NCBI GenBank assembly: GCA_017654935.2
Contig: CM065682.1
Span: forward strand, 34,017,432-34,081,431
Origin: Phymorhynchus buccinoides
Taxonomy: Eukaryota > Mollusca > Gastropoda > Neogastropoda > Raphitomidae
DNA length: 64,000 bases
Direction: 5' to 3'
Of the stretch, positions 4,984 to 39,429 are shown in pieces. A model generated the notes under the pieces. It was not told the origin of the DNA and did no database searches. It saw nothing but the letters and a program-made list of their open reading frames with translations. How positions within the stretch are numbered: the stretch's first letter is position 1; each line of letters begins with the position of its first letter. A program made the position numbers and the translations under genes.

Positions 4984-5180
4984 AGGTGTTTAAATAGCAA
5001 GATCGATGGAAGAATAAATATGAATGTAAAAGAATGTTCTGTTTGGCATACGCTCAACTGAATCAAACAACAATGATGGTAACTCTATAAATCACATTAT
5101 GTTTACAGAGAAAATGTGCATTAGTATATATAAGAAAACAACTAGACGAAACCATTGTTAGTTTTATTTGAACATCCACT

Positions 5181-5680
5181 NNNNNNNNNNNNNNNNNNNN
5201 NNNNNNNNNNNNNNNNNNNNNNNNNNNNNNNNNNNNNNNNNNNNNNNNNNNNNNNNNNNNNNNNNNNNNNNNNNNNNNNNNNNNNNNNNNNNNNNNNNNN
5301 NNNNNNNNNNNNNNNNNNNNNNNNNNNNNNNNNNNNNNNNNNNNNNNNNNNNNNNNNNNNNNNNNNNNNNNNNNNNNNNNNNNNNNNNNNNNNNNNNNNN
5401 NNNNNNNNNNNNNNNNNNNNNNNNNNNNNNNNNNNNNNNNNNNNNNNNNNNNNNNNNNNNNNNNNNNNNNNNNNNNNNNNNNNNNNNNNNNNNNNNNNNN
5501 NNNNNNNNNNNNNNNNNNNNNNNNNNNNNNNNNNNNNNNNNNNNNNNNNNNNNNNNNNNNNNNNNNNNNNNNNNNNNNNNNNNNNNNNNNNNNNNNNNNN
5601 NNNNNNNNNNNNNNNNNNNNNNNNNNNNNNNNNNNNNNNNNNNNNNNNNNNNNNNNNNNNNNNNNNNNNNNNNNNNNNNN
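5181..5680. other. Assembly gap (500 N)
   Basis: Exactly 500 N, a placeholder of unknown true size. Reading frames that span it are meaningless. Confidence 0.99.
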
Positions 5681-5921
5681 TATCCACACATGCGGCATAT
5701 ACATGCGTCTGTAAATGCATGTCATTGTGTGTTGCTAGCCCCCCCCCCCCCACACACCCACGCATATGTGCGCACATTCCAATATGAGAGAGAGGGAAGA
5801 GAAGAAACTGCATGTTACAAAGACAGATATGTACAGAGAAAGAAAGAGAAGATCCACATTAACCCACATGCAGCATTAACATGCGCCACTCGCACCCAAT
5901 ATTGTATACATACCTGCATAC

Positions 5922-6403
5922 TATAGTTGAGAACCGGTTCAAAAAATGAACCGGTTTTAAAACCTGTTTTCCCTATCCGAACCGGTTATCGAACCGGTTT
6001 TTTTAAACCATACTCGTATCACTAGTTTCTACTATGCAAACGCATATTTATTTGTCATAATATCCACACAGCGGAGGCATGCACGCGCAACACATACACA
6101 TAAAGAAACTTATGACGTATGCCACACACGTACACACCTCACTCAACACTCAAAGTCAAAGTCAAAGTCGAAGCCACACACCACCACAAACTAGAAACAC
6201 TCTCTTGGTTCACAAAGCACCCCATTATGCGCTGAAATCAGTGTTGTTTTTCGAAAAAGAATGCGTTATTCTAAGAAAAACTTCCTTTCAGTTTTTAGCA
6301 TTTAAATAACCGGTTAACAGCACTCGAACCGTTTTTCGAACTGGGGGACCGTGAATGTATTAGCACCGGTTTTTTCGGTTCAAACCGTTTCCCCCCACCT
6401 CTA
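5922..6403 (+). mobile_element. hAT-like MITE, copy 1 (482 bp)
   Basis: The element runs from TATAGTTGAGAACCGG to CCCCCCACCTCTA. It is flanked by a perfect 8-bp direct duplication, CTGCATAC, at 5914-5921 and 6404-6411. The 8-bp duplication and TAGAG.TG-type ends fit the hAT superfamily. The interior has no transposase. It is rich in the palindromic hexamer ACCGGT, clustered at both ends as AACCGGTT repeats. A second copy in reverse orientation lies at 22739-23208 with its own different 8-bp duplication, which confirms the ends. Confidence 0.85.
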
Positions 6404-6410
6404 CTGCATA

Positions 6411-6441
6411 CACACACACACACACACAACACACACAACAC

Positions 6442-6484
<43 letters not shown>

Positions 6485-6500
6485 CACACACACACACTGT
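6411..6500. repeat. Interrupted (CA)n microsatellite
   Basis: CA runs broken by AACAC and CGACA. The tract begins inside the 3' copy of the MITE target duplication. Confidence 0.9.
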
Positions 6501-6739
6501 GAAAATGCCTTCTAATCATTTGTTGTTATCAATATTTCGATGCATAATAAACCAGGCGTAAGCATACAGTTGTTGTAGGCTGATTGCATGCCGAACTCCG
6601 TTTAGACCCCTTTCTTTAAAAAAGTCCAATCAAAACTGGAATGCTGAAACAGGACATAAAAACACAAACATTTTTAACATAATCAATTGGAACAATAGTA
6701 CCAAATCAATCATGAAAAAATCCAACTGGTGTGTTCAAC

Positions 6740-8060
6740 AATGAACAATTGATTACTACTACGGCACAAATGATGACTACAACGGGCACAATTGGATGAC
6801 TACAAACGGGCACAAATGATGACTACACGGGCACAATTGAATGACTACAACGGCACAATTGAATGACTACAACGGCAATTGTGACTACAACGGGCCAATT
6901 GATGACTACGCGGCACAATTGATGACTACACCGGCACATTGTGACTTACAACGGGCGACAATTAATTACCTACAACGACCGCAATTGATGACAACAACGG
7001 GCCACAATGGATGACTTACACGGGCACAATTGATGACTCACACGGGCACAATTATGACTACCACGGGCGCAATATGTGACTACAACGGTCACAAATAATG
7101 ACACTAACGGGCACAATTGTGAACTACAAGGCCACAATTAATGACGATCACCGGGCACAATTGAATGACTACAACGGGCACAATTGATGACTACAACGGG
7201 CACAATTAATGACTACAACGACCGCAATTGATGACCACAACGGGCACAATTGATGACTACAACAACGGGCGCAATTGATTACTACAACGGGCGCAATTGA
7301 TGACAACAATTGATGACTACAACGGGACACAATTGATGACTACAATGGACACAATGATGACTACAACGGGACACAATTGATAACGACAACTGGCGTAATT
7401 GATGACTACTACAACGGGACCACTGATGATAAAACGGTACACAATTTATGACATACAACGTGACACAATTGATGACTGCAACGGGAGACAATTGATGACT
7501 ACAACGGGACGCAATTGACTACAACGGGAGCAAACAATGTGCACTACCACGGACACAATTGATGACATACAACGTGACACAATGATGACTTCCTCACGGA
7601 CACAATTGAGGACCACAACGGGCACAACAATACTGATACTACTACACCGGACACAATGATTACTACAAACGGGCCACAATGATGACAACGAACGGGACCA
7701 ATTGATGACTTACAACGCTGACACATGAATGAACTACAACGGACCCATTGATGACTACAACGGGATCAATTGATGACTACAACGGGCTCAATTGATGACG
7801 ACAACGGGCACAATCGATGACTACAACGGGCACAATTGATGACTACAGGCACATTGATGACTATAACGGGCACAATTAATGCTACAACGGGCACAAATAT
7901 GACTACAACGGGCACAAATAATGACTACAACGCACAATTGATGACTACACGGCACAATCGATGACTATACAACGGGCACATTGAATTATACAACGTGCAC
8001 ATTGATGACTATTACGGGCAAATTATGACTACAACGGGTGCAATCGACACAGGCGCAATT
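6740..8060. repeat. Degenerate ~22-bp minisatellite
   Basis: About 60 units approximate to ATTGATGACTACAACGGGCA followed by CA. Units differ mainly by one-base insertions and deletions and by small changes such as GGGACAC for GGGCAC. No long reading frame survives. The indel-dominated variation could be biological or could reflect uncorrected long-read error. Confidence 0.9.
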
Positions 8061-8137
8061 GAGCAATGGGGTACTTGAAATAGGCGCAATTGAGATGCAC
8101 CGCTTTCCAAGGGCAGGTGTCCCCACTCTCGCTCGCT

Positions 8138-8166
8138 GTGTGTGTGTGTGTTGTGTGTGTGTGTGT
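8138..8166. repeat. (GT)n microsatellite
   Basis: Short GT tract with one slip. Confidence 0.9.
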
Positions 8167-9680
8167 CCAAGTCAAATCAATCTTACCAGCGCAAACGCCG
8201 ATTACCGTTAACGCCTAGTACCGGTAACGCCAAGTACCGGTAACACTGAATCAGTTTTTTGGTCCGGGTCCGCGAAATATTGTATTATTACGTTGGTCTC
8301 TCTCCCTCCTTCCCCCATCCCGTTCCACCCCATCCCTCGCTAAGTAAATACGCTCTCATCAGTGAGTAATTCCGCTCTCCAACCCTTTTCTTGCCCGTGC
8401 CGTGCGCATGATACTGAGTTCTTCTGTGTAAACTGTTTGTGTGTGACGGCTTGAAATTTTGGGTCTGCGCAAATGTAAATTGCGCGTTTATGATGGATCT
8501 TTGACAGGTTTTGCACCAAGATGTCCACTATCCCTGGTCAGCACGTTCCAAATTTCGAGTCAATTTCGGGTCTAGTTTTTGCCGCGTTTTGTGAATACGG
8601 TGCAGCGTGCATATCGCGCGTGTTTATAAATCGATTCGCTTCCATTTTGGAACAAAGATAGTCAACTCTCCCGCCGTCTCTACCTGCCATTTTTTTTATA
8701 TTTTTTTTTACTGCCCAATCTTCAGGGCAGTAACAGTGGCGTTTGCTCCCGCCGCTCGTGCTCCGGATCCCCAGTTTCGCGCTACCCCGGGTTTGTTTCA
8801 AGTCGCAGAACGAGACCAGCAGTCCAATGGGAGTGAATCTAATGTTACTACTCAGGAGGCAACCAACCGAGGAGACACTGCACGTCTGCTGAGTCACTTC
8901 GGTGGAGTTCAGTGGAGCCTGTCAGGACACCCCACCTACTAAGCCCCCCTACTACGACACTATTCTCTTAGTCGCTGAAGCCAGCGGATGAGGTCCTCCT
9001 CCGGGGCGCCGACCACTACCGTTCACCGACAGCTCCCCCAGCACCACTGATCCCCATGACTTTTGACCCGAACGGACAATTGGAATTGGAAATCGAAACT
9101 GATTGGAAAACGAAACTGTATTGGAAACCGAAACTGATGGAAACCGAAACTGAGGTCCACCATGAGATCAGGGCATGCAAAGCCACAAATTGAGACATTT
9201 TTTAAATTATGATTGATGGAAAATGAGGCGCTGATAACGATGGATTCTGATGCTATGAGTTCCGTTACCTGCCAAATTTAAGGCAACGCCCGTCATAAAT
9301 ACCCATGCATCAGAAATAGTCTGAAGTCCATCCTCATGAAAACGCGGTAAAAGGCTTATATAAGCCTTAGACTGAAAGAGGGACAACATTTGAATGAATT
9401 TCGAACACACCAAAAAGGCTGTGATAAAGACTTTAAAATGTCCATTTAACACAAAGGATAACACTCAATCAAACGGCAAAACTCCTGACATAGAAGCAAT
9501 CCTCTGTCGAAATTCTTAATCCTCTGAATCCTCGGATCCTCTGACAATTCTGATGCCTGATCCGAGAGAACATGAGAAATGGGCTCTGGCTCATTTCGGT
9601 TTTCGGTTTTCGGTTTCACTCTCCTTTATTCAAAAACGGCTTAATCACGCCTTTTCTTATGCTTTTTATCCCCAAAAACC
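8167..9680. other. Mostly unannotated; two small repeats
   Basis: No gene recognised. Positions 8205-8250 hold three copies of a (C/G)TACCGGTAACGCC-like unit. Positions 9080-9150 hold about four copies of a 17-bp unit close to TTGGAAACCGAAACTGA. A short stretch at 8810-8872 (GAGACCAGCAGTCC then CAGGAGGCAACCAA) resembles 23908-23968, so a small dispersed repeat is present. Confidence 0.55.
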
Positions 9681-9692
9681 AACAAGCTCATA

Positions 9693-9770
9693 CGACCTTC
9701 CATCTACTATTCCATCTACTATTCTATCTACCACCAACTATATAGGTTAAGGAAACGACCTTCTATCTAC
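9693..9770 (+). promoter_or_regulatory. Iteron-like direct repeats and TATA-like site, left arm
   Basis: CGACCTTCCATCTACT and CGACCTTCTATCTACT flank further CCATCTACTATT copies, with CTATATAGG at 9738-9746. They lie upstream of the gene at 9920. Use as replication-protein or transcription-factor sites is inferred only from repetition and position. The mirror copy is at 15628-15705. Confidence 0.35.
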
Positions 9771-9919
9771 TTTTAGTAAAAACACCACATCTTTTTATTT
9801 AAAACAGCACGTTTTTATAATTTATAAACACTAAAACTCATTTTTATACTAAAATCCAATATTTTTACAAAATTAATTTTAATTTAACTAAAATCCTATC
9901 TAATAAAAAAGAAACAAAA

Positions 9920-11998
9920 ATGGTAGATATACTGGATGTGCAACAGTGGATAAAGATCGATAAAACCCAACTATCCAATAGAGATAAAATTGGAGCAGTA
10001 GCACTTATGGAAAAGATATGTTTATTAAACTGTAAAAATGATATGTATGGGATAAACTTTAACAAAAACGGGAAGAAAGGACACACTCTCTACCCTATTA
10101 GCAATATATTCTGCGATAACTTTGTACTCTCCACACCACGTAACATGTTGGATTCTAAAAATACTATGGTTGGTTATTATAACCATTTAATTAGAGTTAT
10201 TTTGTTAAGATACAACCATAAAGTTTTTGTTAATGCTATTGGTTACACTGCTAAGGAAAGACAAAAGTACAAAGTAGCATGCAAATCCATCCCACTCGCA
10301 TTAGTTTACCAAATTATTGGCGACCCGGAATTTGCTAAATACGATATAGTTTTAGAGGATATAGATATTACGCAAGATTTTGCAGGCTCTTTTAATCGAG
10401 AAGAAACCATAACTAAGATGTTGGATTTAGATTTTCGCATGGAGGGAGATGCAACTGGAGAGGATAAAATTATATTAAATAACACTTCCTATGTTGGAGA
10501 GAATTGCTTAACTTACATGGATACAAGTAACAAGGATAATTTGGTTAGAAGCAAAATCTATAACAAGTTTGTACAGGAAGTGGAGAGTAATAGCGTACGA
10601 GGAAATTTAGGACACCACTTATTTACATGGTGCACAGATAATAAAAGACCAGCGTTAGAACATGGATTACTTAGAATGGAGACAACCTACTATGGCAGAG
10701 TGCCAAATGAGCAGGACATTAAAAAATATTTAGATGCTTGGTTGGATATTTTAACACCAGAGATCTGTTACTCCACCCCAATTAGTAAACAATGGGCATG
10801 TGTTACAGAAAAAATCTCCCATAATCTTGTTGTTAAATGCAACACCAAAATTGTTGTATGCTTATGGATTAATTCTTTTACAAAAAAGATTGGTGGATAC
10901 TTTAAAGATAGTGATAGCAAAGAAGATTTTTATTGGATGGCAACAGAACTAACATTTAACAAACCATTAGATATAATTTATTTACTTTTGGATGGAAAAG
11001 ACTTGTCGTTAGCTATTAATAGCTATACTAAACATTGTGCAGTGGAGAATAGTGCAGCCCAACTAACAAGCAAATCTTATATACACCAAGTTAGCACAAA
11101 TAACCCAAAAGACTACGGTCTAACAGAAAATAATGGAGTTGGGTTCTATTGCAATCCAAAACCTACCAACAAAAAAACCAAAAGTAGATTTGCATTAAGT
11201 TTAGAAGTATCTCCAAAAATAGTTTGCACAGATAGAAAGCTAGTAGCCAAGGAAGAGATTCTTAATTTGGAAATGGAACAAAATATTATAAATAAAAGAG
11301 TAACAGAACTAAAAAGTATAGTAAAGAAGAATGGATTAGATAACATACTTAAACACTCTTTTAATGCGGGTAAGCTAAGCACATTACCAATTGGTGCTGT
11401 ATTGGAGGTTTACGGTGCTGTTGCTAAAACAACCAAATACGGTCCTGCATTTATTCTTGCAACAGATGCAGGTCCATACTTCGCAGATTACTACACCAAA
11501 AATTTGCTACTTAAATTTAAACCAACAGCCACTTTTAATGGAAACCATGTAATTAAAATCTTATTTTCTTTAGAGATTATTGGATATGGGTGGAGTGCAA
11601 CAAAAAACAAATATGTTAAAACAAACATAACTATGCGGCAAGAAGTAGATTATAAAAAGGTGGAGGAAGAATTAGATTCGTTAACTACATCTAAACTGGT
11701 GTTAAGGACAGATCTATTACAACTAAAAGATTATAAAAAACTAGAAAGTTTAAATGTAGGAACTGTTTTAGATGTTACAGAATATGGGATATTAAAAGTT
11801 AGAGGACAAGACAGACATATTATTTTTACAGACTATGGTGACTTTATAGATAATTTTTTTCTTAGGGAAAAGTATAAGCAGATGGAGATGCTTAATAAGC
11901 ACAAGATAGTTTGCACAGGATTTAAAACAACCAAACAAAAACAAAAAGCTATGGCTGTAAGAATTATAGAAACCATAGAACCGGAGCAAAAAAAATAG
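9920..11998 (+). CDS. Putative rolling-circle-type replication initiator (copy 1)
   Basis: Intact 692-codon single-exon gene; the ATG sits in a favourable AAAAATGG context. Residues 147-156 read DIDITQDFAG, 211-217 SKIYNKF and 250-257 LLRMETTY. This order (acidic strand, Tyr with Lys, then R.E) resembles the Rep_trans family (Pfam PF02486) of plasmid and phage initiators, in which the Tyr nicks DNA. I see no HUH motif. Residues 440-470 are charged and helical. Residues 488-573 and 610-686 look like two repeats of one fold, each with a G.VL.V strand and a TD.G.(Y/F) turn, possibly OB-type nucleic-acid-binding domains. AATAAA lies at 12007-12012, just past the stop. The family assignment is motif-based by eye; another DNA- or RNA-binding protein is possible. 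That the gene is real is much surer than its function. Confidence 0.7.
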   Translation: MVDILDVQQWIKIDKTQLSNRDKIGAVALMEKICLLNCKNDMYGINFNKNGKKGHTLYPISNIFCDNFVLSTPRNMLDSKNTMVGYYNHLIRVILLRYNHKVFVNAIGYTAKERQKYKVACKSIPLALVYQIIGDPEFAKYDIVLEDIDITQDFAGSFNREETITKMLDLDFRMEGDATGEDKIILNNTSYVGENCLTYMDTSNKDNLVRSKIYNKFVQEVESNSVRGNLGHHLFTWCTDNKRPALEHGLLRMETTYYGRVPNEQDIKKYLDAWLDILTPEICYSTPISKQWACVTEKISHNLVVKCNTKIVVCLWINSFTKKIGGYFKDSDSKEDFYWMATELTFNKPLDIIYLLLDGKDLSLAINSYTKHCAVENSAAQLTSKSYIHQVSTNNPKDYGLTENNGVGFYCNPKPTNKKTKSRFALSLEVSPKIVCTDRKLVAKEEILNLEMEQNIINKRVTELKSIVKKNGLDNILKHSFNAGKLSTLPIGAVLEVYGAVAKTTKYGPAFILATDAGPYFADYYTKNLLLKFKPTATFNGNHVIKILFSLEIIGYGWSATKNKYVKTNITMRQEVDYKKVEEELDSLTTSKLVLRTDLLQLKDYKKLESLNVGTVLDVTEYGILKVRGQDRHIIFTDYGDFIDNFFLREKYKQMEMLNKHKIVCTGFKTTKQKQKAMAVRIIETIEPEQKK

Positions 11999-12006
11999 CC
12001 TACCCC

Positions 12007-12012
12007 AATAAA
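12007..12012 (+). terminator. Polyadenylation signal, copy 1
   Basis: AATAAA eight bases after the stop codon at 11998. A second one occurs about 100 bases on (12110-12118). The position fits eukaryotic expression of the gene. Confidence 0.55.
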
Positions 12013-12137
12013 CTTTGGACCCTACTAACCAACGTTATATACATTTTTGTTAATCCATTTAATTGTGTACTAATTAAGATTTATTTTAATGCTAAACACA
12101 CTTTAATTATAATAAACATAAGAATACTTGTGTTGTG

Positions 12138-12301
12138 CTGCTCTAGAACTTTACTGGTTCTTTTTAAGAACTTAGTAGGTTCTTAATGGGAACATGGATG
12201 GTTCTTAATAAGAATTTGGTCAAGTGGTTGGGTGGTTCTTAATAGAGGGTGGCCAAGTGCAAAGAAGTTCTTATAAAAGAACCAGTAAAGTTCTAGAGCA
12301 G
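12138..12301. promoter_or_regulatory. Perfect 27-bp stem-loop with repeated decamers
   Basis: Positions 12138-12164 and 12275-12301 are exact reverse complements. The 110-base loop holds three copies of GGTTCTTAAT (12178-12187, 12200-12209, 12234-12243). A smaller AAGAACTTAGTAGGTTCTT stem lies at 12166-12184. The structure occurs once, beside the left gene. Its form would suit a replication-origin hairpin with initiator binding sites, or a transposon end. Neither can be shown from sequence alone. Confidence 0.6.
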
Positions 12302-12579
12302 GTTATTAAACAAGAACTTCTTAAAAACTTAAAAAGTAATTGTTTAAGTTGCTAAGATTTAATTGTGGTTTTGTTGTCAAGTTTTAAAGAGGAGTAAAAA
12401 TGGGGTTTTATAAAAATAACAAGTGTGTTTTATTTTAAAAACAAAAGTGGTGTGGTGTCAAGGTGGGTTAGTTGTTTTGGTGTGGTGTGGTGGGTTGGTT
12501 GTTTTGGTGTGGTGTGGTTGTGTGGTTGGTTAGTTGTTTTGGTGTTGTGTTATTTGCAAAACAAAACAATAGGGTAGGG

Positions 12580-13090
12580 TTAGCTGCTCGACGCTATGCG
12601 GAGTGTTGTGGAGGATTTTGGTAATAACAACGACGCTGTGCGGAGTGTTGTGTTGTTATCTGCCCGACGCTATGCGGAGTGTTATTATCTGCTCGACGCT
12701 ATGCGAGGTGTTGTGCTGTTAGCTGCTCGATGCTGTGCGGAGTGTTGTGCTGTTAGCTGCTCGATGCTGTGCGGAGTGTTGTGCTGTTAGCTGCTCGATG
12801 CTGTGCGGAGTGTTGTGCTGTTAGCTGCTCGAGGTGCTGTTATTTGCTCGATGCTGTGCGGAGTGTTGTGTTGTTAGCTGTCCACGTGCGGGTGTTGTGC
12901 TGTTGTACTGCTCGACGCTGTGCGGAGTGTTGTTATTTGCTCGACGCTATGCGGAGTGTTGTACTATTAGCTGCTCGACGCTGTGCGGAGTGTTAGCTGC
13001 TCGACGCTATGCGGAGTGTTGTGCTGTTATCTGTTCGACGCTGTGCGGAGTACTATTATCTACCCGACGCTATGCGGAGTGTTGTGCTGT
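12580..13090 (+). repeat. 34-bp tandem array in the palindrome spacer
   Basis: About 14 units follow GCTGCTCGACGCTATGCGGA then GTGTTGTGCTGTTA. Variants include TATTTGCTCG, a T/C change in CGAYGCT, and a few shortened units. The array is much richer in GC than the arms. The unit length is not a multiple of three, so the array is not coding. Confidence 0.92.
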
Positions 13091-13385
13091 TAACAACCAA
13101 AAGTGTTGTGCTGCTGTGGAAGTGCTGCTGCAGGTGTTGTGGATTAAAATTATAAAGAATAAAAAACATAACAAAAAAAAAAATGTTAAAGAAGATCTGC
13201 ATACAAGGATTAAAGGGTGCCTGTTGTTGTTTAAAAGCGCATATATTTTATTATAACAACACAAACTTTTGTATTCTTATGTTTATTATAATTAAAGTGT
13301 GTTTAGCATTAAAATAAATCTTAATTAGTACACAATTAAATGGATTAACAAAAATGTATATAACGTTGGTTAGTAGGGTCCAAAG

Positions 13386-13391
13386 TTTATT
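13386..13391 (-). terminator. Polyadenylation signal, copy 2
   Basis: Mirror of 12007-12012: AATAAA on the minus strand just past the stop of the second gene copy. Confidence 0.5.
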
Positions 13392-13399
13392 GGGGTAGG

Positions 13400-15478
13400 C
13401 TATTTTTTTTGCTCCGGTTCTATGGTTTCTATAATTCTTACAGCCATAGCTTTTTGTTTTTGTTTGGTTGTTTTAAATCCTGTGCAAACTATCTTGTGCT
13501 TATTAAGCATCTCCATCTGCTTATACTTTTCCCTAAGAAAAAAATTATCTATAAAGTCACCATAGTCTGTAAAAATAATATGTCTGTCTTGTCCTCTAAC
13601 TTTTAATATCCCATATTCTGTAACATCTAAAACAGTTCCTACATTTAAACTTTCTAGTTTTTTATAATCTTTTAGTTGTAATAGATCTGTCCTTAACACC
13701 AGTTTAGATGTAGTTAACGAATCTAATTCTTCCTCCACCTTTTTATAATCTACTTCTTGCCGCATAGTTATGTTTGTTTTAACATATTTGTTTTTTGTTG
13801 CACTCCACCCATATCCAATAATCTCTAAAGAAAATAAGATTTTAATTACATGGTTTCCATTAAAAGTGGCTGTTGGTTTAAATTTAAGTAGCAAATTTTT
13901 GGTGTAGTAATCTGCGAAGTATGGACCTGCATCTGTTGCAAGAATAAATGCAGGACCGTATTTGGTTGTTTTAGCAACAGCACCGTAAACCTCCAATACA
14001 GCACCAATTGGTAATGTGCTTAGCTTACCCGCATTAAAAGAGTGTTTAAGTATGTTATCTAATCCATTCTTCTTTACTATACTTTTTAGTTCTGTTACTC
14101 TTTTATTTATAATATTTTGTTCCATTTCCAAATTAAGAATCTCTTCCTTGGCTACTAGCTTTCTATCTGTGCAAACTATTTTTGGAGATACTTCTAAACT
14201 TAATGCAAATCTACTTTTGGTTTTTTTGTTGGTAGGTTTTGGATTGCAATAGAACCCAACTCCATTATTTTCTGTTAGACCGTAGTCTTTTGGGTTATTT
14301 GTGCTAACTTGGTGTATATAAGATTTGCTTGTTAGTTGGGCTGCACTATTCTCCACTGCACAATGTTTAGTATAGCTATTAATAGCTAACGACAAGTCTT
14401 TTCCATCCAAAAGTAAATAAATTATATCTAATGGTTTGTTAAATGTTAGTTCTGTTGCCATCCAATAAAAATCTTCTTTGCTATCACTATCTTTAAAGTA
14501 TCCACCAATCTTTTTTGTAAAAGAATTAATCCATAAGCATACAACAATTTTGGTGTTGCATTTAACAACAAGATTATGGGAGATTTTTTCTGTAACACAT
14601 GCCCATTGTTTACTAATTGGGGTGGAGTAACAGATCTCTGGTGTTAAAATATCCAACCAAGCATCTAAATATTTTTTAATGTCCTGCTCATTTGGCACTC
14701 TGCCATAGTAGGTTGTCTCCATTCTAAGTAATCCATGTTCTAACGCTGGTCTTTTATTATCTGTGCACCATGTAAATAAGTGGTGTCCTAAATTTCCTCG
14801 TACGCTATTACTCTCCACTTCCTGTACAAACTTGTTATAGATTTTGCTTCTAACCAAATTATCCTTGTTACTTGTATCCATGTAAGTTAAGCAATTCTCT
14901 CCAACATAGGAAGTGTTATTTAATATAATTTTATCCTCTCCAGTTGCATCTCCCTCCATGCGAAAATCTAAATCCAACATCTTAGTTATGGTTTCTTCTC
15001 GATTAAAAGAGCCTGCAAAATCTTGCGTAATATCTATATCCTCTAAAACTATATCGTATTTAGCAAATTCCGGGTCGCCAATAATTTGGTAAACTAATGC
15101 GAGTGGGATGGATTTGCATGCTACTTTGTACTTTTGTCTTTCCTTAGCAGTGTAACCAATAGCATTAACAAAAACTTTATGGTTGTATCTTAACAAAATA
15201 ACTCTAATTAAATGGTTATAATAACCAACCATAGTATTTTTAGAATCCAACATGTTACGTGGTGTGGAGAGTACAAAGTTATCGCAGAATATATTGCTAA
15301 TAGGGTAGAGAGTGTGTCCTTTCTTCCCGTTTTTGTTAAAGTTTATCCCATACATATCATTTTTACAGTTTAATAAACATATCTTTTCCATAAGTGCTAC
15401 TGCTCCAATTTTATCTCTATTGGATAGTTGGGTTTTATCGATCTTTATCCACTGTTGCACATCCAGTATATCTACCAT
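13400..15478 (-). CDS. Putative rolling-circle-type replication initiator (copy 2)
   Basis: Identical 692-residue product to the gene at 9920-11998, on the opposite strand, so the two genes converge on the spacer. The candidate motifs (acidic strand at residue 147, Tyr-Lys at 214-216, R.E at 252-254) and the two C-terminal repeats are all kept. Neither copy has a premature stop. That points to very recent duplication, gene conversion between arms, or selection on both. The two 3' contexts differ: only the left copy has the 27-bp stem-loop next to it. Function is as uncertain as for copy 1. Confidence 0.7.
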   Translation of the reverse strand: MVDILDVQQWIKIDKTQLSNRDKIGAVALMEKICLLNCKNDMYGINFNKNGKKGHTLYPISNIFCDNFVLSTPRNMLDSKNTMVGYYNHLIRVILLRYNHKVFVNAIGYTAKERQKYKVACKSIPLALVYQIIGDPEFAKYDIVLEDIDITQDFAGSFNREETITKMLDLDFRMEGDATGEDKIILNNTSYVGENCLTYMDTSNKDNLVRSKIYNKFVQEVESNSVRGNLGHHLFTWCTDNKRPALEHGLLRMETTYYGRVPNEQDIKKYLDAWLDILTPEICYSTPISKQWACVTEKISHNLVVKCNTKIVVCLWINSFTKKIGGYFKDSDSKEDFYWMATELTFNKPLDIIYLLLDGKDLSLAINSYTKHCAVENSAAQLTSKSYIHQVSTNNPKDYGLTENNGVGFYCNPKPTNKKTKSRFALSLEVSPKIVCTDRKLVAKEEILNLEMEQNIINKRVTELKSIVKKNGLDNILKHSFNAGKLSTLPIGAVLEVYGAVAKTTKYGPAFILATDAGPYFADYYTKNLLLKFKPTATFNGNHVIKILFSLEIIGYGWSATKNKYVKTNITMRQEVDYKKVEEELDSLTTSKLVLRTDLLQLKDYKKLESLNVGTVLDVTEYGILKVRGQDRHIIFTDYGDFIDNFFLREKYKQMEMLNKHKIVCTGFKTTKQKQKAMAVRIIETIEPEQKK

Positions 15479-15627
15479 TTTTGTTTCTTTTTTATTAGAT
15501 AGGATTTTAGTTAAATTAAAATTAATTTTGTAAAAATATTGGATTTTAGTATAAAAATGAGTTTTAGTGTTTATAAATTATAAAAACGTGCTGTTTTAAA
15601 TAAAAAGATGTGGTGTTTTTACTAAAA

Positions 15628-15705
15628 GTAGATAGAAGGTCGTTTCCTTAACCTATATAGTTGGTGGTAGATAGAATAGTAGATGGAATAGTAGATGGAA
15701 GGTCG
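15628..15705 (-). promoter_or_regulatory. Iteron-like direct repeats and TATA-like site, right arm
   Basis: Mirror image of 9693-9770, upstream of the second gene copy. Confidence 0.35.
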
Positions 15706-15717
15706 TATGAGCTTGTT

Positions 15718-18045
<2,328 letters not shown>

Positions 18046-20958
18046 ATGTACACCCGTAGTAATAACAATCGAATCACAGGGACTCAAATGAGTCACTTAA
18101 ATGTTTATCATTTGTACAATAAGCTTGCTGACATCTCTTTGCTACTCAATGAACCCCCAAACACCCACATTCTCGGACTCACAGAAACACGCCTGCACTC
18201 AGGCATATCTGATGAACTCCTTCACATCCCCCACTACACCATTCTCCGCCGTGATGCCCAACGCAAAGGTGAAACCGGCATAGCTACATACATACATGAC
18301 AGTTTAGCTAATTTTACTAAAAGGAGAGCAGATCTAGAATCGTTTATAGAATGTATTTGGCTAGAGGTTAAATTTCCAAGATCCCCATCTTTTTTAATTG
18401 GTTTTGTTTACAGGAATCCCTCCGCAACGTTCATCTGGCTAGACGATTTTGTTGCCATGATGGACAAGGTGACCCGCCTCAATAATAATGTTATTCTGCT
18501 TGGGGATTTTAATTTCGACCTCATGAAATCACAGCCATCATGGCAATCCACCACTTCTTTATTTGGTTTGCACCAACTTGTAACCTCCCCCACCCGAATC
18601 ACCCCCACCTCCTCCACCCTCCTTGACCATATTCTTACAAATAATACATGCTTGGTATCAAACGTTAGAACTTTAAATAAAAGTATTAGCGACCATTTCC
18701 CCATTTGTTGCACTTATCTATTCAAGCCTCCAAAACAGCCAAATAAGGGACACACTACTATTCATTACAGATCGTTTAAACATTTCAGTCAAAATGACTA
18801 CTTTTACGACCTTAATGTAGCTAATTTTAATGACATTTTTAATTATACTGACCCTGAGAGTGCTCTAGATGCCTTTTATAATACGCTTCTCCCAATAGTG
18901 AACAAGCACGCACCGCTTCGCAGGAAAAGAGTCAAACAACCTTCTCTCCCTGGTTGGCTCACACCTGACATACAGGGGTCTATGAAAGAGAGGGATATAC
19001 TAAAGAAGGAGAGAGATCAGTTACAAAAACAAACATTACCTAAAAAGAACGCAGATAATGCGCAACTCTCCGATTCTGCCAAAGAGAAACACAAGCTTGA
19101 CAGAGAAAAGAAGGAGACTGAATACAAGAAACAACGCAATAAAGTAGTTGACCTTATTGAAGTGTCAAAGCGAAACTACTTTAATAAAATGTTAGCCACA
19201 AACAAAGATACGGCTTCATTATGGCGAGCAATAAATACTTTCAGTAACAAGAATTGCACTAAACAAAATCACAGCTACACCTGGTCTCCTAACTCATTCA
19301 ACGAGCACTTCCTCAACTTAGCAAGTTCAACAATGCAGTCTGACACCTTATGCCCTAATAAATACACGGTCCCCTCTTTGCTCCAAACCTTTTGCGAGGA
19401 GAGAACAAACCAACACTCCTCCTTTCAGATACCTTTACTAGCAGTTCATGAAGTAGGAGCTCTTATTACTAGTTTAAAGAATAAAAAATCAATGGGACCT
19501 GACACGTTAAACGCCTCTCTTTTAAAACTTTCTCTTCCATACATTGTCGAACCCCTTACATATAATTTGTGCATAGACCTAAGAACAATACCCTCTGCCC
19601 TAAAAACAGCTAAAGTTATCCCAATACCCAAAACAAACGATAATTCTGACCTAAGCAACTTTAGACCTATTTCACTTCTGTCAGTGCTATCAAAACCCCT
19701 AGAAAAGCACGTCCACAGTCACCTATCTAAATATCTAGAAAACTCCAACCTCCTTCACCCCCTTCAGTCTGGCTTTCGTAATCACCATTCTTGTCACACA
19801 GCTCTTGTCCGTTTGTGTGATTCTTGGCTCTCAGCAATAAACAAGCATCAGTTAACTGGTTCCGTCTTTCTTGATCTAAGAAAAGCCTTCGACCTTGTCG
19901 ACCACACAATACTTATCAACAAATTATCACACTATCTCAGAAACCAGCACTCCCTAACATTCCTTTCATCATATCTGGATAATAGAACGCAATACGTTTT
20001 TTGTAATGGCGAGTCCTCTTCTACAGGCAAGGTGAAATGTGGTGTACCCCAGGGATCTGTCCTCGGTCCATTACTTTTCTGTATTTTCATTAACGATCTT
20101 CCATTGTCTATATCCAACCCAAATGTTTCATGCGATCTTTTTGCAGATGACTCCTCCCTGCATTCCAGTTCGGAAAATGTAACTGACATCCAAAACTCTC
20201 TTCAATCAGGCTTACATGATGTATCTAAATGGTGCAAGGATAATTCTATGTTAATTCATCCCAAGAAAACAAAGTGCATGGTTGTAACCTCCCGTCAAAA
20301 GCATCAACTAACACGCCATTCCCTTAACCTAACTATTGATGGCAACGATATCGAACAAGTTCATGAACATCGAGTTCTAGGCGTCATACTTGATGACAAA
20401 CTCAACTGGCAATCACATATAAATCACGTTAGAAATAAACTAGCACGCAACCTATTCCTTCTCAAACGACTTCAATCCTACCTAGACCTAGACGCACGTA
20501 AAATGTTCTTCTATGGCCACTGCCTCTCGCACATCAACTATGCATCCACTCTATGGTCCTATGCTGCTAAAAAACACCTAAAAAAACTAGCATCGCTCCA
20601 CAGAAGAGCGATCAACTTAATCCTGCCAGATCCATCTCTGTCAACTTCAGAAAAGTTTCATAATCTTGAAATTTTACCACTTGAACACCAGTTACAGTAC
20701 AACACAGCTGTCCTAATGTATAAAGTCCACAGTAACTTGACACCCCAGTACCTAGAAAATCTCTTAACTCCTTCCACATGTAGTTATCGTTCTGATAAAT
20801 ATGTTCTTCCACGCACCCGCATTGACCTTTACAAAACAAGCTTTTCCTTTTCAGGGCCATATGCTTGGAACTCACTGCCTTCAGATGTAAAGGCATTTTC
20901 GTCAGTATCAAATTTCAAATCTAACTTGCGGGGGCATCTCCTTAATCCCATCCATTAA
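18046..20958 (+). CDS. LINE A ORF2: endonuclease and reverse transcriptase
   Basis: Intact 970-codon frame of a non-LTR retrotransposon. It would nick target DNA and copy the element's RNA into the nick. An APE-type endonuclease occupies about residues 15-225, with TETRL at 46-50, LGDFNFD at 152-158 and SDHFP at 215-219. A Lys-rich linker spans about 290-380. The reverse transcriptase spans about 510-760, with NFRPISLL at 538, FLDLRKAFD at 608-616, GVPQGSVLGP at 666-675 and the catalytic FADD at 699-702. The C-terminus carries the YAWNSLP..VK signature of CR1/L2-group LINEs. No ORF1 is visible upstream. All catalytic motifs are present, so the copy could be active if transcribed. Clade placement beyond the CR1/L2 group is uncertain. 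Confidence 0.92.
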   Translation: MYTRSNNNRITGTQMSHLNVYHLYNKLADISLLLNEPPNTHILGLTETRLHSGISDELLHIPHYTILRRDAQRKGETGIATYIHDSLANFTKRRADLESFIECIWLEVKFPRSPSFLIGFVYRNPSATFIWLDDFVAMMDKVTRLNNNVILLGDFNFDLMKSQPSWQSTTSLFGLHQLVTSPTRITPTSSTLLDHILTNNTCLVSNVRTLNKSISDHFPICCTYLFKPPKQPNKGHTTIHYRSFKHFSQNDYFYDLNVANFNDIFNYTDPESALDAFYNTLLPIVNKHAPLRRKRVKQPSLPGWLTPDIQGSMKERDILKKERDQLQKQTLPKKNADNAQLSDSAKEKHKLDREKKETEYKKQRNKVVDLIEVSKRNYFNKMLATNKDTASLWRAINTFSNKNCTKQNHSYTWSPNSFNEHFLNLASSTMQSDTLCPNKYTVPSLLQTFCEERTNQHSSFQIPLLAVHEVGALITSLKNKKSMGPDTLNASLLKLSLPYIVEPLTYNLCIDLRTIPSALKTAKVIPIPKTNDNSDLSNFRPISLLSVLSKPLEKHVHSHLSKYLENSNLLHPLQSGFRNHHSCHTALVRLCDSWLSAINKHQLTGSVFLDLRKAFDLVDHTILINKLSHYLRNQHSLTFLSSYLDNRTQYVFCNGESSSTGKVKCGVPQGSVLGPLLFCIFINDLPLSISNPNVSCDLFADDSSLHSSSENVTDIQNSLQSGLHDVSKWCKDNSMLIHPKKTKCMVVTSRQKHQLTRHSLNLTIDGNDIEQVHEHRVLGVILDDKLNWQSHINHVRNKLARNLFLLKRLQSYLDLDARKMFFYGHCLSHINYASTLWSYAAKKHLKKLASLHRRAINLILPDPSLSTSEKFHNLEILPLEHQLQYNTAVLMYKVHSNLTPQYLENLLTPSTCSYRSDKYVLPRTRIDLYKTSFSFSGPYAWNSLPSDVKAFSSVSNFKSNLRGHLLNPIH

Positions 20959-31262: not shown

Positions 31263-31579
31263 GCATCGTAAAGCGACGGTTCTGTGTATGTTAAAGGAAG
31301 TACCATTCTTTCCTTCTTTTTGTCAATGTGGGTTTCAGTTTCAATGGATATTTCGTCTCATTTTGCATGATCTAAGACATCACATCGAAACATTGCGGCC
31401 GTGAAGTAAGTTGAATGCGACAAGACGGAAAGAAATAAAAACATTATTTGAAGTTATTTTTTAAGGACAAAAACGTTTTTCAAAACAATGCTGTTGCAAT
31501 TCTTTGTGGGGCTTATTATTTAGACGTGCAACGGAATCATTCTCTCCTGACGCTGCATTCACTTTCAGCTGAGTTCAAA

Positions 31580-32617
31580 ATGGCGGTGTCTTCATCTTTC
31601 TTATCTTCGTTGCCAGATAATTCCACCTCACATGGAAGTGGATTACAGTCTGATGACACCCCTTGGGACTCCCATCCTTATGTTGTCTTCAGCAAATATA
31701 TCAGCAACATCGGCTATTCTAGCATCCTTCTTTTGGGGAGTTTTGGAAACGCCATGACCATCGTGATAGCGAGGAGAATGATGTCAGAAGATTCCCTCAT
31801 TGAGTATTACTTTATTGCACTGGCGAGTGCTGATTCTGTCGTGATCCTAAGAGCGCCAGTTGTCGAATTGTTGGGTGCTGCGTTTGATATTAATTTGCTG
31901 GCAAACAACCCTGGCTGTAAAATTATACAGTGGTTATCGTGGTCAACGACGCTCTGTGGGTGGTACCTGGTGTGTCTGACCTTACACAGAGCCATGTCTG
32001 TGGCGTGGCCACATCGGATCAACGTGCTGTGCAGTCGACAAAAAGTACTTATTCTTCTTGTAGTAATCGGTCTATGCGTTCCTGTTCTATATTCGCATTT
32101 ATTATACGGATTTAAAATGTTTTATAATGAAGCTTATGGCTATTCTTGTTGGATGGATTCAGATTATAAATATTTTTCTGAGAATGTGTGGGTGTATTTA
32201 GAAATGGTTATAGATACCATAATTCCATTTATTTTGATGGTTGCTGGCAACGCTATTTTGATCTGGAAGCTCAAGAAGTCCATGAAAGAAACTCGCCAGA
32301 AATTAACTGGAGGACACACTGACCAGAATCTGGCACGAGAAAAAGCCGCCGATTCCGTGACCTTAACTGTGATTGTCGTGTCCCTGACCTATATTGTGCT
32401 AACCTTGCCCCAGTCTGTCTACTTTATCATGTTCTTTTTTGCTAGTGGCACAACCATTGATTTTTACGCCAAAAGATGGCTTGTGTACAATGTGACCTTT
32501 GTGTTATTGCATTTTAACAGTATTGTGAACTTTTACCTCTACTGCCTGACAGGGAGAAAGTTCCGAAAGGAATTCTTCAAGTTGATCTCCTGCACAAAGA
32601 ATAAAAGGACTCGTTAA
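31580..32617 (+). CDS. Class A GPCR, neuropeptide-receptor-like
   Basis: A 345-residue seven-helix receptor in one exon, acting at the plasma membrane through G proteins. I chose the ATG at 31580 (CAAAATGGC context) over one 132 bases upstream. The later start gives a normal extracellular N-terminus with an NST glycosylation site at 14-16. Helix 1 carries GN at 56-57; helix 2 LASAD with Asp85. Cys113 and Cys190 can form the conserved disulfide. The DRY position reads LHRAM (135-139), so the Asp is replaced. Helix 6 keeps Pro277 without the CW.P Cys-Trp. Helix 7 has NFYLY at 317-321 in place of NPxxY, as in FMRFamide-type receptors. The tail is short and basic. The ligand is unknown. No break is seen. 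It lies between the arms of an inverted duplication. Confidence 0.88.
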   Translation: MAVSSSFLSSLPDNSTSHGSGLQSDDTPWDSHPYVVFSKYISNIGYSSILLLGSFGNAMTIVIARRMMSEDSLIEYYFIALASADSVVILRAPVVELLGAAFDINLLANNPGCKIIQWLSWSTTLCGWYLVCLTLHRAMSVAWPHRINVLCSRQKVLILLVVIGLCVPVLYSHLLYGFKMFYNEAYGYSCWMDSDYKYFSENVWVYLEMVIDTIIPFILMVAGNAILIWKLKKSMKETRQKLTGGHTDQNLAREKAADSVTLTVIVVSLTYIVLTLPQSVYFIMFFFASGTTIDFYAKRWLVYNVTFVLLHFNSIVNFYLYCLTGRKFRKEFFKLISCTKNKRTR

Positions 32618-35937: not shown

Positions 35938-38900
35938 TTATTGGAAAGACTGCCGGAACAGATGGGTTTTCAGGTTTGTTTTGAACGATGCTAAAGATTG
36001 ACTATGTCTGACAGCAGAAGGCAATGAATTCCAGAGTTTGACTGCTGATGATGTAAAAGCTCTACCACCGTGCCTATCACGTTTAAATTTTGGTATTCGA
36101 AAGATCCTATTGTCATTTGCTGAGCGGAGAGATCGAGATGGAACGTAAATTTCAAGAAGCTCAGAGAGGTATTGCGGTGCTGTTCCTGATATGATCTGAT
36201 AGCAGAGACAGGCAGCTTTGTAGTTTATTCTTTGTTGAACGGGTAGCCAATGTAACTCTTTAAGTAGAGGTGATGTGTGTTGAAGACGCTTGGCTTTGAA
36301 GACCATTCTAGCAGCAGAGTTTTGAAGTTGTTGTAAGGGTTTGAGAAGCGCCTGTGGGCAACCAAGTAGAAGGGAGTTGCAGTAATCTAATCTAGACAAA
36401 ATGTATGAACTGACTAGCGTTTTGGTTGCCTCGGTCGTGAGAAAGGGGCGTATAGAGCTGATTCGCCTGAGTTCGATGTATGCAGCCTGGCAGATCTTAG
36501 TGATATGATGTTGCATGGAAAGGTCTTCATCCAAGAAAGCACCAAGGTTGCGAATATGTTCAGAAAAATGGATGTTGGAATCTCCAAGGGCAATGGTGGA
36601 GGGCAGAGAGCTAGAGTCAACAGATGGGGGAAGCACTCTAAGTGCTTCAGTCTTGTCATCGTTTAGCTTAAGTTTATTGTTTGACATCCATGTTTTCACT
36701 TCAGTGACACAGTCTTGAAGAGTGTGAATAAGCTGGTCGTGAGCTAGCGGTGAAGCATGATGATTGAGTTGAGTATCATCGGCATACATTTCATGACGGA
36801 CAGAGTGTTTCGCTATGAGGGGGGTCAATGGGGTGGTATACAGAATGAACAAAATTGGTCCTAACACGGAACCTTGTGGGACGCCAAAATCAAGAACTGA
36901 CTCAGAAGATTTGTTTTCATTTACTACAACTATTTGTTTTCTTTCATGAAGATAGGAACGAAACCATTTGAGGACATTTCCAGTGATTCCAAAATTTTGT
37001 TCGAGACGAGAAATAAGCATGTCATGATCGATTGTATCGAAGGCAGCCGAAAGATCAAGGAGTAGGAGAACCGAAACTTTGTCTTCGTCTAGAGAGAGAA
37101 GTAAATCGTTCAGAATTCGCAACAGGACTGTCTCTGTGCTGTGCCCTGGCCTATAGGCTGACTGATGAGGACTGAGAAGATTGTGGGTGGTCAGATGGGA
37201 GAAAAGTTGATGAAGCACAAGCCTTTCAAGAAGTTTAGAAAGATAAGGGAGATTTGAGATGGGTCGATAGTTTTTCAGTTCGTTGGGGTCAAGGTTTGTT
37301 TTTTTGAGCAGAGGTTTTACGATAGCAGTCTTGAATTCCGAGGGAAAGATACCAGAAGAGAGTGACTCGTTCATTATATTGGTTATAGTTGGCAGAACAA
37401 GATCAATGTGTTGAAACAGAAACAGCAACTTGGTGGGCATAGGGTCTAAGTCACAGGTTTTGGGCGTGGTCCGTAGCATAAGTCGTTTAACAAAGTCCTG
37501 GGAAACAGGGGTGAAAGTTAGGAAAGGGATACCTTCGAAAATGGTGGCAGGATTGTCCAACTGCTGGACAGACTGAAAGCTATTACGGATAGCTATAATT
37601 TTATTCCTAAAGAAATCAGCAAACATGTTAGGTAATAGACTTGCATCAGAAATGGTTGGAAGAACAGCTGGTTTGGTTTTGCCGAGCAGAGAGTTAATGT
37701 TGTTAAACAGCTGTTTACACGTATTCGAGCCAGTAACGAGCGAGGAGTAGAACGCGGTCTTAGCAGAATCAACTAATTGGGCTATCCTATCTATAGCAGC
37801 ACGGTGGATGTCTTTGTGTACTGTGAGCCTGGTTTTTCTTTCCTGTCGCTCAGCGCGTCTGCGTTCGACTTTGAGCGCGCGCAATTCCACAGCAATAGAG
37901 TTATACCACGGACTCGGCTTTCCGTCACGGAGTTTGATTTCAGACACAGGCGCATGCTTGTCTAAAACAGCAGAGAGCTCGCTGTTTAATTCAGAGACTA
38001 ACATAGTGGGCGTTATGGACTGCGCGATATCATTTGCTAATTTATCATGATTGACTTTGTTAAGCGGACGTTGAAAGACAGATTTAGAACTACGCGTGGG
38101 TTTTTGTAAGGCTAGTTTACACACAATGGCATAATGGTCAGAAACAAGATCATGGCATACATCAGTAGAAAGAACAACATTATCATCATGTCTATGAATA
38201 ACTAAATCTAAAATATGTCCACATGTATGAGTTGCGTCTCTAACACTTTGCTTAAGACTAAATAAATCTAACTGTTGGCACATCTTTTGGGCATATCCAT
38301 CACACGGGTCATCTACATGAAAGTTGAAGTCGCCAGTCACAATAACACTGTTATTTGTAAAGTACACACAGTCCAGGAAGCCGGGCAGTTCGTCAAAGAA
38401 GACTGGTACAGTCAGTTTGTTATTCTTGTTGGGTGGTGGTCTGTAGAGGAGAAAGAAGGTCACACGTTGGTCCGGGAGGGTCAGGGTTATCTGGGCCAGT
38501 TCAAAAGATAGATGAGGGAAAGGGAAGTCCGTTGTTATGGCACAGTGTTGAGCTAGGGTGGCCTTGAGGATGACGGCCATGCCACCTCCTCGGGTCACAC
38601 TAGTGTTGTGCTGTCTGGGGAGGGAGAACATCGTATAGCCAGGGGGAGTCAGGTCACGGCACTTTGCCTCATCACCCGAGTGACGAAGCCAGGTCTCAGT
38701 CAGCAGGAGGATGTCCACGTCGCGGTCAATGGTGAAGTCGTATATGGCTGATCGTTTGGTGGAGGGGCCAACAGAACGTGCGTTAAAGACACACATAGAT
38801 AGCTGACGGGGCAGAGTGGTCACGTTTTGGAGTGGGATGGTGATAAGGTTGGATGGGTTTGAGCCCCGGGACGGAGGAGGCAGGTCAGTGAGGTCACAGA

Positions 38901-39429
38901 GGATGGAGGGTGGTGCAGGGCCATGGTGGGTGGTGGGGCCAGCACTAACATCGTTGAAGGGTGAACCGCAGATGATGTTGATCTTCTTCTGTTTTCTTCT
39001 GCCACCACGACAGGAACGTTTGCGGGGTAGGTTGACACCTATGCCTAGGTTTTTCAGACAGGCAATAACATGTTGGTCCAAGCGGGCGCCTGTGGTCTTT
39101 AAGGCGATCAGCTGGTCGGGTGAATAGCGGTAGGGAGAGCTGATCGACTCCAGCTGTTGGCCACAGTCAGCGAAATGGTTGCCAGGCTCCGAAGGCACTG
39201 TGAAGGAATGCCTAGGTCCAACGTGAAGGGATGGAGGGCCGGCCAGCGAAAATGTCGGCCTACACTGAGACAGAATTGAGTTTCTTGCTGCCATTAAAAA
39301 CAACAGAAAGAAAAACCTGTGTGGTAAGGGGGCCCCATAAAGCCACAGACGTGATGATGGATCCATGGCACACAAATAATACACAATCAAACACACACTC
39401 CGGCACTTAAACACATGTAAACAAGTCAA
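35938..39429 (-). CDS. LINE B ORF2: endonuclease and reverse transcriptase
   Basis: Intact 1163-codon frame; translation may start at an internal Met such as residue 22. A low-complexity basic N-terminal region with KRSCRGGRRKQKK (137-149) may bind RNA. The APE-type endonuclease covers about residues 208-438, with FNARSV at 215-220, LLTETWL at 242-248, TGDFNFH at 365-371 and SDHY at 430-433. The reverse transcriptase covers about 695-960, with NYRPISNLP at 720, LLDLSAAFD at 790-798, GVPQGSVLGP at 849-858 and the catalytic YADD at 882-885. The C-terminus has the AVKLWNSLPS..R signature. These features fit the CR1/L2 group. It differs strongly from LINE A, so two families are present. All catalytic residues and both element ends are kept, which suggests recent insertion. 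Confidence 0.93.
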   Translation of the reverse strand: MTCLHVFKCRSVCLIVYYLCAMDPSSRLWLYGAPLPHRFFFLLFLMAARNSILSQCRPTFSLAGPPSLHVGPRHSFTVPSEPGNHFADCGQQLESISSPYRYSPDQLIALKTTGARLDQHVIACLKNLGIGVNLPRKRSCRGGRRKQKKINIICGSPFNDVSAGPTTHHGPAPPSILCDLTDLPPPSRGSNPSNLITIPLQNVTTLPRQLSMCVFNARSVGPSTKRSAIYDFTIDRDVDILLLTETWLRHSGDEAKCRDLTPPGYTMFSLPRQHNTSVTRGGGMAVILKATLAQHCAITTDFPFPHLSFELAQITLTLPDQRVTFFLLYRPPPNKNNKLTVPVFFDELPGFLDCVYFTNNSVIVTGDFNFHVDDPCDGYAQKMCQQLDLFSLKQSVRDATHTCGHILDLVIHRHDDNVVLSTDVCHDLVSDHYAIVCKLALQKPTRSSKSVFQRPLNKVNHDKLANDIAQSITPTMLVSELNSELSAVLDKHAPVSEIKLRDGKPSPWYNSIAVELRALKVERRRAERQERKTRLTVHKDIHRAAIDRIAQLVDSAKTAFYSSLVTGSNTCKQLFNNINSLLGKTKPAVLPTISDASLLPNMFADFFRNKIIAIRNSFQSVQQLDNPATIFEGIPFLTFTPVSQDFVKRLMLRTTPKTCDLDPMPTKLLFLFQHIDLVLPTITNIMNESLSSGIFPSEFKTAIVKPLLKKTNLDPNELKNYRPISNLPYLSKLLERLVLHQLFSHLTTHNLLSPHQSAYRPGHSTETVLLRILNDLLLSLDEDKVSVLLLLDLSAAFDTIDHDMLISRLEQNFGITGNVLKWFRSYLHERKQIVVVNENKSSESVLDFGVPQGSVLGPILFILYTTPLTPLIAKHSVRHEMYADDTQLNHHASPLAHDQLIHTLQDCVTEVKTWMSNNKLKLNDDKTEALRVLPPSVDSSSLPSTIALGDSNIHFSEHIRNLGAFLDEDLSMQHHITKICQAAYIELRRISSIRPFLTTEATKTLVSSYILSRLDYCNSLLLGCPQALLKPLQQLQNSAARMVFKAKRLQHTSPLLKELHWLPVQQRINYKAACLCYQIISGTAPQYLSELLEIYVPSRSLRSANDNRIFRIPKFKRDRHGGRAFTSSAVKLWNSLPSAVRHSQSLASFKTNLKTHLFRQSFQ

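Follow-up and report, generated by a model that had tools for sequence, protein, structure and literature searches.

Gene-bearing palindromes in the gastropod Phymorhynchus buccinoides: a probable Polinton-associated mobile element family with a predicted Rep_trans-like protein

Rolling-circle initiators of the Rep_trans family (PF02486, including RepDE and RepSTK1) and the MOBT relaxases share a catalytic tyrosine, a lysine at +2, a glutamine or glutamate at +5 and an R-x-E motif on the next strand (PMC4797284, PMC6499999). For RepDE, the metal ligands are D46, D142 and E214 and the nucleophile is Y191, with conserved residues that include R189, K193, E196 (Q184 in RepSTK1) and R212 (PMC4797284). 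An article from 2026 states that these enzymes appeared restricted to bacteria and extends the fold to archaea (PMC13107129). The enzyme type is not known from outside these two domains. The archaeal Rep-Arvir initiators, which we compare by description, belong to viruses and plasmids; their Rep_trans-like fold was detected by structure alone, a hairpin lies downstream of the gene, and no palindromic gene pair is described in the part of the article consulted (PMC13107129). Here we report a palindromic element in a 64,000-nucleotide stretch of the genome of the neogastropod Phymorhynchus buccinoides (assembly GCA_017654935.2, contig CM065682.1, positions 34,017,432 to 34,081,431), hereafter the window, each arm of which is predicted from structural modelling to encode a Rep_trans-like enzyme that would nick and join DNA and that carries two OB-like domains in the same polypeptide. 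We consider it somewhat probable that this element belongs to a Polinton-associated family of palindromic mobile elements with an animal Rep_trans-like initiator, in which the palindromic core is inherited.

Among other mobile elements, Helitrons, Replitrons and IS91-type Rep transposons use HUH enzymes, foldback transposons carry long inverted repeats, and Polintons (Mavericks) produce target duplications of 6 base pairs (bp). The element described here resembles the first group in that a Rep-like protein is the only gene of its core and no target duplication accompanies the end of the palindrome, but the window protein contains neither an HUH motif (no H-hydrophobic-H) nor the Walker A motif of the superfamily 3 helicases found in parvovirus and CRESS Reps (no GxxxxGK[ST]), and both an HUH Rep and a parvovirus-type Rep were rejected on these grounds. 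Long inverted repeats are shared with foldback transposons, whereas the arms here hold an intact gene under purifying selection. The likeness to Polintons and to adintoviruses consists of terminal inverted repeats, a partial type-B DNA polymerase gene and small accessory genes, while the target duplication here is of 5 bp and the interior looks to have been replaced by, or reduced to, the Rep palindrome. In contrast to the Rep_trans enzymes, the window protein has no sequence match to the family, carries a large additional C-terminal part with OB-like repeats, and is encoded in an animal genome in a palindromic arrangement. The principal parts of the window element are as follows.

9681..15833, no strand: whole element, from the left arm through the spacer and the right arm to the outer end on the right, delimited by comparison with other copies; the left outer 116 bp are absent
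9681..12127, plus strand: left arm, 2447 bp, 100% complementary to the right arm
13271..15717, minus strand: right arm, 2447 bp, 100% complementary to the left arm
12128..13270, no strand: spacer, 1143 bp; further subfamily 1 copies carry it in one orientation or the other
9920..11998, plus strand: left copy of the 692-codon Rep-like gene, intact
13400..15478, minus strand: right copy of the 692-codon Rep-like gene, intact and identical to the left copy

A first-pass annotation made from the DNA letters alone had described equal arms of 2447 bp with an identical, intact 692-codon gene in each, and both statements hold by string identity and by the two open reading frames (ORFs) listed. Its alternative suggestion of a head-to-head arrangement differs from what is seen: the genes are convergent, tail to tail, each reading toward the centre of the element. 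The longest open stretch of an arm is 725 codons, as against at most 142 in 300 mononucleotide shuffles, and the element is free of the three 500-N gaps of the window (at 5181, 27384 and 54130).

A search of the 2.12-Gb genome with the 692-residue protein, which the first-pass annotation had recommended, gave 21 matches, 18 of which form ten loci (W, the window copy, and C5a, C5b, C15, C3n, C3138, C20, C3228, C3c and C3d) and three of which are one decayed remnant, C3old, with 30-39% identity to the protein. Because C3228, C3c and C3d share their left and right flanks, they are counted as one insertion, giving eight in total. Inverted pairs are present at seven of the ten loci (W, C5a, C5b, C3228, C3c, C3d and C20), corresponding to five of the eight independent insertions; parts of several of the copy stretches read N. 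C15 retains one arm and the spacer, which is joined directly to the outer end of the missing arm and followed by unreadable bases, C3n has lost most of its right arm and kept the inverted end, and C3138 is truncated at residue 160. Around C3old (L022:4196-7470), an inverted repeat was detected neither in a stretch of 9.9 kb, at the settings applied, nor in one of 29.9 kb. The copies fall into two subfamilies: subfamily 1 (W, C5a, C5b, C15, C3n and C3138) has full arms of about 2.56 kb, as measured in C5a, and a spacer of about 1.0-1.1 kb, and subfamily 2 (C20 and the C3228 group) has 87% protein identity. C3228 is an almost gapless palindrome of 7935 bp that is 99.3% self-complementary, and C20 has arms of 4.6 kb around a spacer of 312 bp. 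Since palindromic copies occur elsewhere in the genome with different flanks, a mobile element with gene-bearing inverted repeats, as the first-pass annotation had suggested, is supported, and a simple assembly artefact is not. A fold-back or misjoin in the assembly would fit the complete identity of the window arms, and the shared flanks of C3228, C3c and C3d mean that these may partly be duplicate assembly copies; against it stand seven inverted-pair loci with differing left and right flanks and slight arm differences in C5a, C5b, C20, C3228, C3c and C3d, by which this explanation is largely refuted, and we set it aside as extremely improbable.

Some flanking sequences recur among the copies. 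The left flank of the window element (7879-9678) is a repeat that aligns with the right flank of C5a over 1868 columns at 90.1% identity, although the arms of W and C5a are about 99.6% identical; the two junctions are about 35 bp apart at most. The shared flank could reflect two separate insertions into a host repeat, or an exchange of sequence between the loci. Sequence from the right flank of the window element (15921..16028) is also found beside C5a, C5b and C20.

The protein has no sequence match to any curated family, and the PF02486 profile matches neither it nor any of the 14 members of alignment A1. The AlphaFold model has a mean predicted local distance difference test score (pLDDT) of 84 for the full protein and 88 for the domain, and its parts map to the window as follows.

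10091..10774, plus strand: predicted TBP-like or Rep_trans-like catalytic fold, residues 58-285, also in the right copy
10559..10561, plus strand: codon of Tyr214, the predicted nucleophile (14837-14839 on the minus strand in the right copy)
11399..11968, plus strand: residues 494-683, two repeats whose strands follow the OB-fold order, from predicted secondary structure

The predicted fold, a crescent of TBP-like form, resembles that of the Rep_trans rolling-circle initiators and also that of TBP; in the comparison of folds RepDE came top for the full model, and TBP and ferredoxin-like folds scored alike or better. Three acidic residues are candidate equivalents of the metal ligands, and the counterparts of the RepDE residues, in the order given above (ligands, nucleophile, other conserved positions), are D66, D149, E254, Y214, K212, K216, Q219 and R252. 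In the model these lie on predicted strands, with D66, D149 and E254 on three separate ones, apart from Q219, which, like E196 of RepDE, is on the helix behind the tyrosine strand. The Lys-x-Tyr-x-Lys-x-x-Gln spacing equals that around the known nucleophile, and the Rep_trans signature of a tyrosine with basic residues at -2 and +2, glutamate or glutamine at +5 and then R-x-E is present. K212, Y214, K216, Q219, R252 and E254 are invariant in all 15 rows of alignment A2, and of the acidic positions D149 and E254 are conserved in 15 of 15 rows and D66 in 12 of the 13 rows with a residue there. Residues 494-683 are predicted to form two repeats of the order strand-strand-strand-helix-strand-strand, as in OB folds, and may bind single-stranded DNA; the structure matches of the full model, which are not resolved by region, include LEF-3 proteins (E at least 0.047) and, at E 0.023, a single-stranded-DNA-binding protein of a phage. 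In a tree of 13 rows, the window protein groups with C20 and then with P0001, P0002 and P0003, a further seven form a well-separated group of their own, and P0006 is a long branch of unsure placement.

The arms within a copy are almost identical, with differences of 0/2447 in W, 4/2437 in C5a, 1/1608 in C5b, 2/2396 in C20 and 1/2395 in each of C3228 and C3c, the exception being C3d with 11/2192. Insertions of subfamily 1 differ from one another at 3-16 positions (W and C5b at 0-1), and C20 differs from the C3228 group at 22-30. Private substitutions common to both arms of C5a are absent from the other subfamily 1 arms (columns 1344 and 1488 of the alignment are examples), and these support homogenisation of the arms within a copy, which bears out that element of the earlier suggestion of recent origin or gene conversion. 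Among the eight gene copies compared, the synonymous divergence (dS) between subfamilies is 0.41-0.46 and the ratio of nonsynonymous to synonymous divergence (dN/dS) is 0.16-0.19; between C3228 and C20 the ratio is 0.08. Judged from these sequences, selection acts on the gene as the element multiplies, and the arms are made or kept identical in each lineage. Both subfamilies are palindromic, and the layout is therefore probably older than the split between them; a central segment of 356 columns is also common to C20 and C3228 at 99.2%.

Gene conversion after insertion would also explain identical arms. A combination of ordinary ectopic conversion after insertion with a TBP-like or DNA-binding protein that has no nicking activity would agree with the TBP folds that score equal to or above Rep folds and with the missing family match by sequence. 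Such a protein would have no need of the catalytic positions of RepDE, which are conserved here together with the matching tyrosine spacing, and the arm pairs of C5a and C20 differ by three and two nonsynonymous codons, respectively, and by no synonymous ones, as expected from arms that were identical at insertion and then drifted. We regard this combination as very unlikely.

Two of the insertions sit inside terminal inverted repeats with 5-bp target duplications, which the first-pass annotation could not have seen. Beyond the palindrome on both sides, C3228, C3c and C20 have inverted repeats that start with AGAGAATG and are bounded by exact duplications (TAAGT in C3228 and C3c, TCTTT in C20). 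Both repeats are present at C3d, where the right one is altered and the duplication is not intact; C15, C3n and C3138 have a repeat of this type on one side, and none was found at W, C5a or C5b in readable stretches. The left repeat of C20 encloses a 463-codon part of a gene with 33% identity over 358 columns to an N-terminal ORF at C3138 adjoining a DNA_pol_B_2 ORF, and shorter portions of the same gene adjoin the palindrome at C5a (58%) and C3138 (67-68%). All three loci hold only an N-terminal part of this putative protein-primed type-B DNA polymerase gene. The left repeat of C3228 encloses three small genes, ORF158, ORF193 and ORF76 (a 74-codon ORF). The decayed remnant C3old keeps Rep (26-37%), an ORF76-like stretch (20 residues, 70%), ORF193 (34%) and ORF158 (32-51%), all arranged and oriented as in C3228, and the Rep-like gene is therefore an old neighbour of these three genes. 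The palindromes thus look like Polinton-associated elements whose interior was replaced by, or reduced to, a Rep core. We base the putative Polinton identity of the neighbouring genes on the polymerase match and on the general gene content of such elements; no retrovirus-type integrase gene and no capsid gene was recognised in the stretches read, and the parent element was not located, no test being aimed at it.

The palindromes could also be read in another way, namely that they are defective fold-back derivatives of a Polinton-like virus with the Rep-like gene among its genes, and that they ride on the repeats of the parent with no replication cycle of their own. The conserved order of the Rep-like gene with ORF158, ORF193 and ORF76 in C3228 and the remnant speaks for such an origin, as does the retention at C20 and C3228 of only parts of a Polinton-type gene content between the terminal repeats. 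One-off by-products would be ill-suited to a palindrome present in both subfamilies, a centre common to C20 and C3228, and purifying selection over a dS of about 0.44. We judge this origin unlikely, while ranking it first among the alternatives to an inherited palindromic core.

Two further observations concern polymerase sequences near C3138. L024:3167-6095 holds another, distinct DNA polymerase B gene, split over two overlapping ORFs, with 33% identity to the C20 fragment in the part they have in common. C3138 itself (L024:7008-8000 and L021:1-5150) contains a tandem array whose unit, about 1441 bp long, combines an enclosing-type repeat with the start of the polymerase gene and roughly 230 bp from the beginning of the palindrome; the last unit continues into the Rep gene. 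Rolling-circle concatemers were considered for these units and dropped because each unit also contains stretches of unknown origin.

Comparison of the copies places the true end of the element at TCAGAAGG, 116 bp beyond the arm as first described. This end occurs 19 times in the stretches examined (once shortened, on the left of C3n), and the bases immediately beyond it vary among insertions. The window copy has it on the right, at 15833, and lacks its left counterpart. The features of the ends and of the spacer are as follows.

15718..15833, minus strand: outer 116 bp of the right arm, reading inward TCAGAAGGAGGACGCTTGTACGGG...CTAGCTAGTGGAG; other copies are bounded by the same end
15718..15730, minus strand: conserved block CTAGCTAGTGGAG, candidate nick site, with breakpoints in the left arm of W and in C15
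9698..9731, plus strand: 12-bp repeats TTCCATCTACTA, candidate initiator-binding sites; inverted copy at 15667-15700
12138..12301, no strand: spacer hairpin with a perfect 27-bp stem (12138-12164/12275-12301)
12448..12528, plus strand: G/T-rich 27-bp repeats in the spacer
12631..13092, plus strand: 34-bp tandem array of 14.8 copies in the spacer

In the window copy, the left arm breaks off at the inner edge of CTAGCTAGTGGAG, the most conserved block, and in C15 the spacer is joined to CTAGCTAGTGGAG within a few bases (L009:6384-6423), the whole body of the right arm being missing. Breaks at this block in two of the eight insertions make it a candidate nick site and nothing further. Repeated CCATCTAC sites adjoin CTAGCTAGTGGAG and are conserved between the two subfamilies. 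The outer end (TCAGAAGG...CTAGCTAGTGGAG with these sites) looks like an origin. The stem, the G/T-rich repeats and the 34-bp array confirm that the spacer is structured, as had been claimed, and the region 12130-12310 folds with a z of -12.5 against 100 mononucleotide shuffles. The terminal 180 bases fold no better than shuffles (z 1.8 and 0.5); contrary to expectation, only the spacer hairpin is strong, and a terminal hairpin as the origin structure, which the replication cycle proposed below would favour, is unsupported by folding.

The constancy of the TCAGAAGG end beside variable neighbours, and the absence of parts of the host element next to the palindrome, would also fit an independent transposon that inserts by chance into Polinton-like elements and causes adjacent deletions. 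Several observations speak against it: no target duplication was found at the TCAGAAGG end of the palindrome, in no copy does an interrupted gene resume on the far side in the stretches examined, and the gene order is conserved in C3old. This explanation is in our view improbable.

For a Polinton-associated family with an inherited palindromic core, what the sequences show is the anatomy, the conserved residues and the joint evolution of the arms; nicking, self-complementary replication and mobilisation in trans are inferred, and the cycle that we consider most likely would run as follows. Tyr214 would nick the outer end and prime strand displacement through the gene; the displaced strand, being self-complementary, would fold back at the hairpin-rich centre to give a duplex with a readable gene and no separate second-strand step; copying via this fold-back form, or gene conversion, would keep the arms identical; and a Polinton-like relative would provide, in trans, the integrase that inserts the element by way of its enclosing repeats. 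More tentatively, and as a possibility that we would not yet favour, an animal branch of Rep_trans-type initiators may drive a new class of eukaryotic element that is self-complementary by design, whose snap-back product dispenses with second-strand synthesis and keeps the arms identical in each round, and which integrates by Polinton-type ends. If true, the animal branch would put a Rep_trans-type rolling-circle enzyme in all three domains of life, the palindromic layout would offer a testable solution to the problem of expressing an element that replicates as a single strand and makes no second one, and the joint change of the arms would serve as a natural gauge of copying frequency. Such elements would also be easily missed or broken in assemblies.

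A phage or prokaryotic origin gained no support: scans of IMG/VR (with the protein and the polymerase part) and of GTDB contigs yielded no confirmed relative, although they are seeded by short exact patterns and can overlook distant ones. We attribute a PHROG match at E 0.43 to chance. Two relatives match YabA, at best with E 0.017 in Pfam and with E 4.8e-5 in NCBIfam, and these are putative chance matches of coiled coils. No known RNA family reached gathering scores in 5000-20000 of the window. Among the matches listed from titles and abstract beginnings of open-licence PMC articles, there were no animal Rep_trans-like proteins and no palindromic Polinton-associated element.

The surroundings of the element in the window are animal-like, with ORFs of the reverse transcriptase type of long interspersed nuclear elements (LINEs), a receptor-like ORF and long microsatellites, all named by eye. 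Two LINE-type reverse transcriptase ORFs are long and open (18046-20958 and 35938-39429 on the minus strand; 970 and 1163 codons), and an open ORF of 389 codons (31448-32617) has the look of a rhodopsin-type G-protein-coupled receptor. Beside the element, at 6745-8037, is a 22/44-bp tandem array of ACAATTGATGACTACAACGGC with about 59 units, and a related array is found in the right flank of C5a.
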